Below, piece after piece: positions 52,680 through 58,501 of a stretch of DNA of 64,000 bases. Position numbers and translations under genes: made by a program. A model generated the notes under the pieces. The model was not told the DNA's origin and did not search any database. It was given only the letters and a program-made list of their open reading frames with translations. How positions within the stretch are numbered: the stretch's first letter is position 1; each line of letters begins with the position of its first letter. Origin of the DNA: Gammaproteobacteria bacterium (lineage in GTDB: Bacteria > Pseudomonadota > Gammaproteobacteria > SG8-11). The stretch lies in NCBI GenBank assembly GCA_024641505.1, contig JAHECY010000004.1, forward strand, positions 1-64,000, given 5' to 3'.

Positions 52680-53261
52680 ATGTCCGAAAAATGGGATCAA
52701 CGCTATCGACAGCAACTTGCCGATGGTTATCGTCCGGAGCCGGTGGCGGTGCTGACCGCCAATGCACACTGGTTGCCGCCGGCACCGGCAGCGGCGTTGG
52801 ACCTGGCTTGTGGCCTCGGTGCCAATGCGCAGTGGCTGGCGGCCCGGGGCTTTGCGGTGATGGCCACGGATATCTCACCGGTAGCGATCGCCCACTTGCA
52901 GGAGGTCGCCGCACGGCACTCGTACGCGATCACGGCGCAGGTGAGTGATGTTACGCAGTCGCCGCTTCCGGCGGCATCCTATCTGGTCATTGTGGTCAGC
53001 CAGTTTCTGGAGCGCGCGCTGTTTCCCCGGTTGTGCCACGCGCTGGCGCCGGGAGGCATGCTTTTCTACCAGACCTACACGCGGGAGCGGCCGACGTGTG
53101 CAACCGGCCCTGCCAATCCCGCGTATCTGCTGGCACCCAATGAATTGCTGCATTTGTGTTCTCCGCTGGTGGTGCGTTACTACCAGGAACCCGGCCTTGG
53201 CGTGCCGCACGGGTTTGTCTGTCCGGCGGGCTGCGCGCAAATCGTGGCCCAAAAGCCCTGA
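52680..53261 (+). CDS. SAM-dependent methyltransferase, TehB-like
   Basis: A 193-aa class I methyltransferase starting MSEKWDQRYR. Motif I is ALDLACGLGANAQWLA, motif II FAVMATDISP, motif IV YLVIVVSQFLE. Similar to TehB/thiopurine-type enzymes often found beside trk or rhodanese genes; the substrate is unknown. ATG 52680 is chosen from the family N-terminus. Its stop codon lies inside the strong palindrome that begins at 53256. Confidence 0.85.
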   Translation: MSEKWDQRYRQQLADGYRPEPVAVLTANAHWLPPAPAAALDLACGLGANAQWLAARGFAVMATDISPVAIAHLQEVAARHSYAITAQVSDVTQSPLPAASYLVIVVSQFLERALFPRLCHALAPGGMLFYQTYTRERPTCATGPANPAYLLAPNELLHLCSPLVVRYYQEPGLGVPHGFVCPAGCAQIVAQKP

Positions 53262-53297
53262 GTGATAGCGCACAGAGTTGTGTGATATCACTCAGGG
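53256..53297 (+). promoter_or_regulatory. 42-bp palindrome with two GTG-N6-CAC sites, candidate activator binding site
   Basis: CCCTGAGTGATA (53256-53267) and TATCACTCAGGG (53286-53297) are a perfect 12-bp inverted repeat whose arms continue inwards with most bases paired. Inside are two GTG-N6-CAC sites at 53262-53273 and 53280-53291, 18 bp apart. The centre lies about 109 bp before the predicted sigma-54 start at 53386, the usual distance of an enhancer site. It also overlaps the stop codon of the preceding gene, so a 3' hairpin is an alternative. Confidence 0.5.
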
Positions 53298-53359
53298 TAA
53301 TCTCTGCTCGTCCATCATCATTTCTCTCCAACTTAATGTAATTAAACAGTATTTTATGA

Positions 53360-53375
53360 TGGCCCGGGTCTTGCT
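53360..53375 (+). promoter_or_regulatory. sigma-54 (-24/-12) promoter
   Basis: TGGCCCG-ggtc-TTGCT compares with the consensus TGGCACG-N4-TTGCW with a single mismatch and exact GG-to-GC spacing. The transcription start should be near 53386, leaving about 88 nt of leader before the DUF4266 gene. The final gene of the cluster encodes a sigma-54 activator. Confidence 0.6.
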
Positions 53376-53473
53376 TAAAGCAGGAACTCGCGGTCTGACG
53401 GCGGCGTTTGCGGCTAGTTCAAGGGCAAGTGTTGACGGGGACCGCCTGGTGTTGATCGATAGGTTGAGAATTT

Positions 53474-53740
53474 ATGATCCAGAATGCCGAAGTTTCATGG
53501 CTGCGGCTGCCACGCCACCGGTGCCGCCATGCAGGCCGGGTATTGGTTGCGTTGCTGTTGGTCAGCGGACAAGGATGTGCGGGCATAGAGCCCTGGGAAC
53601 ATCAGTACCACGCGGACCCGATCATGCAACTGGTGGATGACGGTGAAGAACTGGCTTATCAGCAACATATGTTTCGAGCTCTGGCGCAGGGACTCACCGG
53701 CGCGCCCGTGGGGGGCGGTGGTTGCGGCTGTGAGCAGTGA
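53474..53740 (+). CDS. DUF4266 Cys-rich lipoprotein
   Basis: An 88-aa protein. The signal segment ends SGQGC (Cys35, likely lipidated), followed by GIEPWEHQYHADPIMQ, the VxPWE...LADPxM pattern of DUF4266, and a C-terminal Gly/Cys motif GGGGCGC (80-86). DUF4266 proteins are usually encoded next to DUF3570 proteins, as here with one gene between. The two terminal Cys could bind metal or flavin-like groups. It is the first gene after the sigma-54 promoter. Confidence 0.75.
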   Translation: MIQNAEVSWLRLPRHRCRHAGRVLVALLLVSGQGCAGIEPWEHQYHADPIMQLVDDGEELAYQQHMFRALAQGLTGAPVGGGGCGCEQ

Positions 53741-53823
53741 CGTCGCGGTTTTTTACGTCGATACACGCGCGCCGCGCCATGGGCAAATTTGATTGTTTCA
53801 ATTTGACGTTAACGGGAGTAGGT

Positions 53824-55374
53824 ATGCAGATGTGTGCACATACAAAGAAAGTGTTGTTAGCCATGTTGATGGCGACCACGCTAGCGGGTTGTAACAGCGG
53901 TTCCGGCAACAACGGAAGTGTTGCGGCCAAAATCGACGAGAATCCGGCCAAGTACTACGTGTTCGCGGTGGATCATGAGGGTTATGTCAACATTTATTCA
54001 GATGACGGCGGCCTCGGCATCGAGAAATCGTCGCAATCCTTTCAGCCCAAAAACAAGCAAGGCGGGGCATTGTCACTGGGTGAAATTCACTTCGTCAAGG
54101 GTAAAGCCGTGCTGGTGGTGCAAAACGGCTTCACCGATGATGCGGGTACCGCTATCGGTGGCGGTATTATCATAGTCGACGTCGCCACGCAGGCCTTGGA
54201 GTACATGATTCCCCTGCAATCAAGCAATGGTCTGGTCACGCGGCTCGTCCACAGCTATCTGGACCCGGACGGGCAGCATTTGTGGATCAATAACGACGGA
54301 CCGAACGGCAGTTCCGGTTTGACCGTGGAAGAAATCGCCATGGCGGATTCAGTGTTCCGGGTGAATGTGGATCATGAAGATACCATGGACCTGGATGCCG
54401 ACGGTTTGGGCGATGATATCTACATTGGCGCTTTCGTCGATGCCGATGCCGGCCACAACAATAATGCCAATGAAATCATCGTCGGTAACGGTCACAAGAA
54501 GAGTACCTTTACCGGTTCTGACGCCGGCGGCATGGCCATGAAATATTTCATGACCCACAATATGACCGATAAAACCGTATCCGTCATTGACAATGACCCC
54601 GCTGCCGCGAGCTTTCTGACGGTGGTGAAAACTATCAGTCTGGGCGACAGCGCGCCGCATGGCATGGATTTTTCGCATCACAGCGGCCATGTCTATACCG
54701 GGTTGGTAAGTGGCAGCAATGCGGTAAATATCATTGACGCCACCGATATGACTTTGCCGGCGGGCAATATCGCAGCGGGTACCGATGCCGGCCAGATTCC
54801 CGCCGGTGGTTACGTGCATACGCATGACGACTGGGTTTATACCGCGGGTTACAAAAATGGCGTGGGCTACCTGTCCGTGATTGATGCGGCTACCGACACC
54901 GTGTTGGAGGTTATTGATCTGGGAAATATTTCCTCAAGCAGCTTCAATATCAGCCACATGAGCATGACCCACGGCACCATGACCCATGAAATGCTCAAGG
55001 TGTATGTGCCGAGTCGCACTTCCGGTACTGCGGAGAATGATAAAATCGCGGTGGTTGAATTGGATATGACCACCGGCATGCGTAAAGCCGATGTGGCTGT
55101 GAAGCACATTCCCGTTGGCGCCGGCAGCGACCATCGTAACGGTAAGATTACCCCCGACGGTATGCATGCTTACTACCCTAACGGCGGTGATTGCGGCGTG
55201 GACCATGCAAGTCACGGTCCCAACTGCACCACGATATCAGTTATCAATACCATGACCGATGAAGTGATCGCCATTCTCAATACCGAAGGCCATGAGCCCG
55301 GCTCCATTGGGATTGTTGAGGCCACCGGTAATGAATCCATGACCGGTGATCCGGGTCACGAGCACATGCACTAG
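53824..55374 (+). CDS. Met/His-rich beta-propeller lipoprotein
   Basis: A 516-aa lipoprotein: GGGAG 5 nt before ATG 53824, lipobox LAGC (Cys23). The mature part has YVTN/YncE-like beta-propeller strands (VSVIDND, VNIIDATD, LSVIDAATDTVLEVI, ISVINTMTDEVIAIL). It is rich in His and Met, notably ISHMSMTHGTMTHEM (54946-54993), SHHSGH and a terminus GHEHMH, a composition typical of copper-binding periplasmic proteins. A calcium-like DLDADGLGDD also occurs. An intrinsic terminator follows. Confidence 0.78.
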   Translation: MQMCAHTKKVLLAMLMATTLAGCNSGSGNNGSVAAKIDENPAKYYVFAVDHEGYVNIYSDDGGLGIEKSSQSFQPKNKQGGALSLGEIHFVKGKAVLVVQNGFTDDAGTAIGGGIIIVDVATQALEYMIPLQSSNGLVTRLVHSYLDPDGQHLWINNDGPNGSSGLTVEEIAMADSVFRVNVDHEDTMDLDADGLGDDIYIGAFVDADAGHNNNANEIIVGNGHKKSTFTGSDAGGMAMKYFMTHNMTDKTVSVIDNDPAAASFLTVVKTISLGDSAPHGMDFSHHSGHVYTGLVSGSNAVNIIDATDMTLPAGNIAAGTDAGQIPAGGYVHTHDDWVYTAGYKNGVGYLSVIDAATDTVLEVIDLGNISSSSFNISHMSMTHGTMTHEMLKVYVPSRTSGTAENDKIAVVELDMTTGMRKADVAVKHIPVGAGSDHRNGKITPDGMHAYYPNGGDCGVDHASHGPNCTTISVINTMTDEVIAILNTEGHEPGSIGIVEATGNESMTGDPGHEHMH

Positions 55375-55395
55375 GTAACCTCCCGCCGGTGTTGT

Positions 55396-55437
55396 CGGGG
55401 CATGTCATTTGCCATGCCCCGGTAATGCCGGTTTTTT
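55396..55437 (+). terminator. Rho-independent terminator after the propeller gene
   Basis: CGGGGCATG (55396-55404) pairs with CATGCCCCG (55413-55421), a perfect 9-bp stem; a second short CCGG-taatg-CCGG stem leads into six T at 55432-55437. It should reduce, perhaps not abolish, transcription into the DUF3570 gene. Confidence 0.7.
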
Positions 55438-57523: not shown

Positions 57524-58501
57524 ATGAGTACAGAATTTGATCGCTTAATTGGCGCATCGCCGGAACTGCAAAATGTTATCAACGCCGCCCGCGTGGTGGC
57601 CGTTACCGATGTCACCGTGCTGATTCAGGGGGAGAGCGGTACCGGCAAGGAACTACTGGCACAAGCGCTGCACGCCGCCAGCCGCCGGGCCAAACGTACC
57701 TTGATCACCATCAATTGCGCGGCACTTCCGGAAGCTCTGGTAGAGTCGGAATTATTCGGGCACCGCAAAGGCGCTTTTACCGGCGCTACTCAGGATTATC
57801 TCGGACGCATCCGGGCCGCGCAGGGTGGCACGGTGTTTCTCGATGAAGTCGGCGAACTTTCATTGCCGGTGCAGGCAAAATTATTGCGCTTCCTGGAAAC
57901 CGGTGAATGCCAGCCCGTAGGCGCCACGGGCGTGGTGGCGACCGATGTCAGAGTCATTGCCGCCACCAATAGCGATCTGGCCGCGCGCGTGCAATCCGGT
58001 CACTTTCGCGGGGACCTGTATTATCGATTGCACGTGGTACCGATGGAATTGCCGCCCTTGCGGCAGCGGCGCGGCGACATTGTACCCTTGCTCGCCCATT
58101 GTTTGCGCTATTTCAGCAGTCACCATCAGGTGCCGGCGCCAGAATTCAGCCGGGATGCGCTCCGCATCTTGAAAGCCTACGCTTGGCCAGGCAATGTGCG
58201 TGAATTGCGTAATCTTTGTGAACGCCTGGTGATATTGCTACCCGGGCAACACGTCGATGTGCAGAATCTGCCACAGAACCTGGTCCAGGCCGCGCGTGAC
58301 ACGGGTCGCATATTGCCGTTGGCGGCGCGTGCGCCGTTTGCCGCTATCGCTGATGTGGAGAAAGCCATGTTACGGGATGCCTTGTATCATTTTGCCGGCA
58401 ATCAAAGTCAGGCGGCCCGCTCGTTGGGTCTATCCCGTGATGCGTTCTTGTACCGATTGAAAAAATATGGAATACATTATCAGGTTTCCCTGACGCACTG
58501 A
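57524..58501 (+). CDS. sensor-less sigma-54 activator (bEBP)
   Basis: A 325-aa enhancer-binding protein of AAA+ plus Fis-type helix-turn-helix only, like PspF; it has no REC, GAF or PAS domain. Walker A GESGTGKE (36-43), the sigma-54 contact GAFTGA (83-88), Walker B TVFLDE (103-108), R-finger region YRLHVVP and HTH (NQSQAARSLGLSRDAFLYRL, about 290-312) are intact. Its activity must be set by a partner, by its own level or be constitutive. As the last gene of the cluster with a sigma-54 promoter upstream, it probably acts on that promoter. Confidence 0.92.
   Translation: MSTEFDRLIGASPELQNVINAARVVAVTDVTVLIQGESGTGKELLAQALHAASRRAKRTLITINCAALPEALVESELFGHRKGAFTGATQDYLGRIRAAQGGTVFLDEVGELSLPVQAKLLRFLETGECQPVGATGVVATDVRVIAATNSDLAARVQSGHFRGDLYYRLHVVPMELPPLRQRRGDIVPLLAHCLRYFSSHHQVPAPEFSRDALRILKAYAWPGNVRELRNLCERLVILLPGQHVDVQNLPQNLVQAARDTGRILPLAARAPFAAIADVEKAMLRDALYHFAGNQSQAARSLGLSRDAFLYRLKKYGIHYQVSLTH

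Follow-up and report, generated by a model that had tools for sequence, protein, structure and literature searches.

Paired palindromic operators upstream of a sigma-54-type promoter are very likely the enhancer of a sensor-less activator with a copper-acquisition-like regulon

The window analysed here is the whole 64,000-nt stretch of gammaproteobacterial DNA (contig JAHECY010000004.1, positions 1 to 64,000), and its genes and promoter described below all lie on the forward strand. A gene for a SAM-dependent methyltransferase-like protein (Pfam Methyltransf_25; 52680-53261) precedes a palindromic array, its stop codon lying inside the left operator of that array, and is followed by a sigma-54-type promoter, ATGGCCCGGGTCTTGCT, at 53359-53375 (score 0.88 of 1; GG at 53361-53362 and GC at 53373-53374) with an inferred start near 53386. 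Promoters were scored against the general sigma-54 consensus. The first gene behind the promoter encodes a small secreted DUF4266 protein (PF14086; 53474-53734), and it is followed by genes for a secreted protein without a Pfam or NCBIfam family (53737-55374), which we call propeller-like by its look only and without any test, a DUF3570 outer-membrane-type protein with an SGAT motif (PF12094; 55603-56742), a DsbD_2/SafE-like membrane protein (PF13386; 56798-57499) and a sensor-less sigma-54 activator (57524-58501), the proposed binder of the array. The propeller-like protein contains histidine and methionine; just 4 of the 369 class genomes have it, in this cluster every time. Neither Pfam nor NCBIfam assigned a metal to the DUF4266, propeller-like or DUF3570 proteins of the window, and a copper role is proven for none of the genes in the operon. 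An imperfect 22-bp inverted repeat at 55386-55431, between the propeller-like and DUF3570 genes, could form a hairpin within the operon.

The activator matched PF00158, PF25601 and PF02954 above their cut-offs, giving an AAA+ domain, a lid and a Fis-type helix-turn-helix (HTH) that together span residues 8-315 of 325. Its C-terminal HTH, including the recognition-helix region, was strongly conserved across 84 aligned sequences. No NCBIfam equivalog among the 25 families compared was matched above its cut-off. Like PspF, the protein has no N-terminal sensor domain and consists of AAA+ plus HTH only, in about 325 aa; unlike PspF, it scored 275.1 against a cut-off of 443.55 and 223.8 against 529 with the NCBIfam PspF equivalogs, and its neighbour is not PspA but a DsbD_2/SafE membrane protein.

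Re-reading of the array confirmed a perfect 12-bp inverted repeat, of which CCCTGAGTGATA (53256-53267) and TATCACTCAGGG (53286-53297) are exact reverse complements, as well as two GTG-N6-CAC strings 18 bp apart (53262-53273 and 53280-53291). The centre of the array, 53276.5, lies at about -109 relative to the inferred start. The inverted repeat, the two strings, the overlap with the stop codon and the location near -109 had all been claimed in a preliminary description, and all of them held; the unit that it proposed, GTG-N6-CAC at 18-bp spacing, did not. The conserved register is instead two 16-bp palindromes of the form TGNGNNAWWTNNCNCA, at 53259-53274 and 53279-53294, 20 bp apart centre to centre. 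The left (distal) operator, TGAGTGATAGCGCACA, matches 9 of 10 core positions and begins with the TGA (53259-53261) that ends the methyltransferase gene, while the right (proximal) operator, TGTGTGATATCACTCA, matches 10 of 10; neither has an assigned strand. The array thus reads TGAGTGATAGCGCACA-GAGT-TGTGTGATATCACTCA, and the long inverted repeat (53256-53297), 9 of whose 12 bp fall within the operators with CCC/GGG in addition, is mostly the product of two copies of one palindrome.

The arrangement was unique in its surroundings. The pattern TGAGTGATA-N18-TATCACTCA had no second match in the window at ≤3 mismatches and none in 100 shuffles, and the 20-bp-spaced array occurred once in the whole 4.78-Mb genome (≤2 mismatches), at this place, with no hit for a reversed control pattern. 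Three other candidates were set aside. Scanning the genome for pairs of GTG-N6-CAC with gaps of 15-21 bp returned five unrelated places and missed the window site, where no more than 6 bp separate the two strings. A third operator-like string within the methyltransferase gene (52942-52957, 2 mismatches) was absent from the matching place in a same-genus relative, and a second match to a 21-bp array in the same genome (contig C175, 2 mismatches) fell in a coding region without a sigma-54 site; we take both to be chance.

As RNA, the array region of the window folds into one long hairpin (-31.9 kcal/mol, z -5.43), and the preliminary description had offered a 3′ RNA hairpin as its alternative. 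Such a hairpin could terminate or stabilise the methyltransferase transcript. Besides the stable fold, this reading is favoured by the overlap of the inverted repeat with the stop codon, by the CCC/GGG arm ends, which reach past the operators, and by a somewhat raised flanking complementarity across all arrays (29/75, about 19 expected). It could be assessed in G001, the only other genome of the genus compared, where the gene order is the same (TrkH, methyltransferase, DUF4266, propeller), the methyltransferase neighbour is 55% identical to that of the window and the region 3′ of its stop codon aligns with the window without gaps. The G001 array reads TGAGGCATTTGCCGCA-GAAC-TGCGTGATATCACGCA, with both sites in the window register: the left site matches 10 of 10 core positions at the same place as the left operator of the window, and the right site is a perfect palindrome. 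Each half is a palindrome-like 16-mer, and pairing between the halves is poor, at 1 of the 6 variable positions. The sigma-54 site is also kept (TTGGCCTGATGCTTGCT), 64 bp from the array compared with 65 bp in the window. The one long hairpin, in contrast, is replaced behind the same gene by two small ones (z -1.38). The operators and promoter were thus kept in G001 while the hairpin was lost; therefore, what selection maintains appears to be a pair of distinct DNA dyads, not an RNA hairpin. The comparison with relatives that had been suggested as a check thus went against the hairpin alternative.

Further observations weigh against the hairpin. The fold was not stable in a second relative, G040 (z = +0.18), no U-run follows the window hairpin (the next sequence is TAATCTCTGC), no Rfam family matched up to E = 1, and most other arrays sit in promoter regions rather than 3′ of stop codons. 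Mirror pairing between the two sites was not significantly above within-array permutation (109/186 against 100.6 expected, p 0.07), and a special mirror symmetry, whether for a hairpin or a cruciform, was not needed and was dropped as a candidate. Of what defines an intrinsic terminator, the stable hairpin is met; the U-run and conservation of the hairpin in relatives are not. We consider the RNA reading very improbable and retain the DNA operators.

To look beyond the genus, we built a weight matrix from just three sites, both of those in the window and one from G001. At 37 loci of activator orthologues (52-57% identity), tandem pairs scoring >18 were found in seven, all a short way upstream of the activator gene or of the SafE-like gene beside it, compared with a top score of 17.4 at 43 control loci of other sigma-54 activators. 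Two genomes from two other families, G040 and G304, carry the same DUF4266-propeller-DUF3570-SafE-activator cluster with pairs upstream, and more pairs were recovered in regions from 46 activator-positive genomes of the class. In its general form the array consists of two copies of TGNGNNAWWTNNCNCA whose centres lie 20-22 bp apart, with 14 arrays at 20, 11 at 21, 5 at 22 and 1 at 19 bp. Arrays scoring ≥19 numbered 23 in 1.07 Mb of orthologue loci, against 0 in 0.53 Mb around other activators and 0 in 3.2 Mb of shuffled sequence. Because core positions served to pick arrays, the consensus is to some extent circular there, although the first matrix came from the window and G001 only. In G252 (C1:1705121-1705176) three operators stand in a row at 20-bp steps, which suggests that arrays can be longer than two. 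Separately, in loci L199 and L200 (G088 and G211) the whole array is a nearly perfect inverted repeat and lies close to what may be a small metal-binding gene (IKCGGCANS in L199); a sigma-54-like site at a distance of 51-52 bp points away from this gene.

These comparisons also bear on the simplest rival, a palindrome that arose by chance. Short inverted repeats are frequent in any 64 kb, and nothing else speaks for it; against it stand the uniqueness of the array in window and genome and the fact that G001, G040 and G304 all keep its place, spacing and register. Because the array is conserved in relatives, the chance reading is already refuted, and we regard it as excluded for nearly all purposes.

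Occurrence of the array followed that of the activator gene. Genomes were called activator-positive at E ≤ 1e-92 (46 of 369). The reversed control pattern occurred in none of the 369, a strict array (no mismatch, 20-22 bp) in 10: 8 of the 46 positives against 2 of the 323 others (Fisher p 1.2e-6). These two were G001, in which the activator is not visible since the contig ends inside the cluster, and G033, whose match falls within coding sequence, has no promoter and was discounted. When G001 was counted among the positives despite its missing activator, a 21-bp array with ≤2 mismatches was found in 18/47 activator-positive and 3/47 activator-negative genomes, and with ≤1 mismatch in 9/47 and 0/47, respectively. 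A point against the enhancer reading is that no more than about half of the activator-positive genomes yielded an array. None lay near the activator at many Thiodiazotropha loci and at some loci of methanotrophs; the targets in those genomes may sit elsewhere.

We also determined the position of the arrays relative to promoters. A sigma-54 site scoring ≥0.84 at 40-100 bp accompanied 17 of 25 arrays, compared with 1.2% of positions drawn at random from these loci. With further arrays added, the 28 array-promoter distances fell at 50-55 bp (18), 64-66 bp (6), 74, 77, 85 and 95 bp. They left the intervals 56-63 and 67-73 bp empty and look like steps of about one helical turn. The loci are partly related, and no formal p value is given for this phasing. 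For the G040 array, no sigma-54 site could be recognised where one would be expected.

A referee might ask whether a different regulator, such as a MerR-, LacI- or CRP/FNR-type dimer, binds the array and by coincidence has the same targets. Several dimeric regulators are known to have sites resembling the GTGATATCAC core, and operators are often palindromic. Against this reading, the sites are paired at 20-22 bp, sigma-54 promoters lie 50-95 bp away, and the arrays co-occur with one family of sigma-54 activators; moreover, no regulator other than the activator was found among the cluster genes scanned, and CRP or FNR half-sites, judged by eye, were not conserved in G001. A different regulator is thus very unlikely, and the sigma-54 activator remains the preferred binder.

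The genes beside arrays elsewhere provided a hint about function. TonB-dependent receptors adjoin arrays in L033, L035, L161, L183, L184, L186, L201, L203, L207, L208, L210, L211, L216, L224 and L226. Only those of L184, L033, L035, L183, L186 and L161 were scanned, the others being read from sequence and position. The L184 receptor passed the NCBIfam TonB-copper cut-off (569.9 against 472.45); those of L033, L035, L183 and L186 had the TonB-copper model as best match but below threshold, the L161 receptor had a siderophore model as best match, and several target receptors scored as general or siderophore-type TonB receptors. Copper-binding MbnP and its partner MbnH follow arrays in L188 and L051, above curated cut-offs, and PCu(A)C copper chaperones lie downstream of arrays in L170 and L173, with ExbB and TonB in L170. 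DUF4266 clusters follow arrays in the window, G001, G040, G304 and G252, and a thioredoxin-like gene is present in G040 and G252. The identifiable targets elsewhere therefore mostly look like copper-acquisition genes, from which a copper signal is inferred. The window operon is tied to this theme only through the shared operator and activator. Neither the regulon nor the copper link had been foreseen in the preliminary description.

In the window, and at most of the loci with a DsbD_2/SafE-like gene, this gene immediately precedes that of the activator. In four loci from Methylohalobius and Methylothermaceae assemblies (L019:7221-8942, L033:3123-4886, L035:2505-4205 and L040:4264-5964) the two are fused in one frame through a linker of 17-20 residues, an unusual domain architecture in which Pfam found DsbD_2, AAA+ and HTH_8 each time. 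Since the four assemblies are separate and the linkers similar, a sequencing artefact is unlikely. Because the two are fused in one polypeptide, we infer that the membrane protein may control the activator.

As a kind, the window array would be a sigma-54 enhancer. Enhancers of the NifA, NtrC, NorR and PspF type are known to consist of at least two dyads some 100 bp ahead of a -24/-12 promoter, served by an AAA+ Fis-type activator. The window array resembles such tandem upstream sites in its paired dyads, its -24/-12 promoter and its linked AAA+ Fis-type activator. NifA is known to bind TGT-N10-ACA and NorR GT-N7-AC, and the operator TGNGNNAWWTNNCNCA and its 20-22 bp array differ from both. 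In Methylococcus capsulatus, copper-responsive gene clusters contain a TonB system, MauG-type di-haem proteins and putative sigma-54 promoters (PMC4831470), and thus share copper-limitation genes and putative sigma-54 promoters with the regulon described here; that study named FUR, IHF and sigma-54 sites, and the relevant sections name no activator or enhancer site. DUF4266/DUF3570/thioredoxin-like (ApbE) clusters are known as flavinylation systems, and an SGAT motif of the kind present in the window's DUF3570 protein is reported as an ApbE flavinylation site (PMC8238504). The window cluster is like these in joining DUF4266 with DUF3570, in the SGAT of its DUF3570 protein and, in G040 and G252, in the thioredoxin-like gene, and unlike them in adding the propeller-like protein and the sigma-54 activator. 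The open-access literature searched contained no description of a sigma-54 activator of copper uptake or of this regulon; subscription papers were outside the scope.

Taken together, the palindrome is very likely (probability about 0.87) the tandem enhancer of the sensor-less activator encoded at 57524-58501, which would serve a copper-acquisition-like regulon. The sites, their spacing and conservation, the promoter geometry and the co-occurrence with the activator gene are shown, and three features expected of a sigma-54 enhancer are present: dyads upstream of a -24/-12 promoter, conservation amid diverging neighbours and co-occurrence with the activator. An enhancer for this activator had already been proposed, and it is now supported by conservation in G001, recurrence in two families and the co-occurrence, without binding or expression data. 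In the inferred mechanism, two activator dimers would bind the two 16-bp palindromes, set 20 bp or two helical turns apart, and would seed an AAA+ hexamer that contacts sigma-54 RNA polymerase at 53359-53375 by looping and opens the promoter. The DUF4266-propeller-DUF3570-SafE-activator operon would thereby be switched on and, as it holds its own activator gene, would be autoregulated; the same operator-activator pair would run a dispersed regulon in other Gammaproteobacteria. Because the identifiable regulon genes are mostly for outer-membrane or periplasmic copper acquisition, the likely signal would be the status of copper or a similar metal, with the DsbD_2/SafE membrane protein as a likely partner that may read copper status and gate the activator.

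How bacteria, notably methanotrophs, sense low copper and induce MbnP/MbnH, TonB receptors and related genes is unsettled. The analysis names four things that lend themselves to direct tests, namely the operator, the family of the activator, the geometry of the promoter and a membrane protein as candidate sensor, and the operator array can serve as a search pattern for the regulon in further genomes. A bolder reading, for which we see the odds as evenly balanced, is that this is a widespread, undescribed gammaproteobacterial copper-acquisition regulon in which SafE directly controls a sensor-less sigma-54 activator, to which it is fused in some methanotrophs. If so, these bacteria would possess a membrane-tethered, metal-sensing enhancer-binding protein that recognises tandem TGNGNNAWWTNNCNCA sites.
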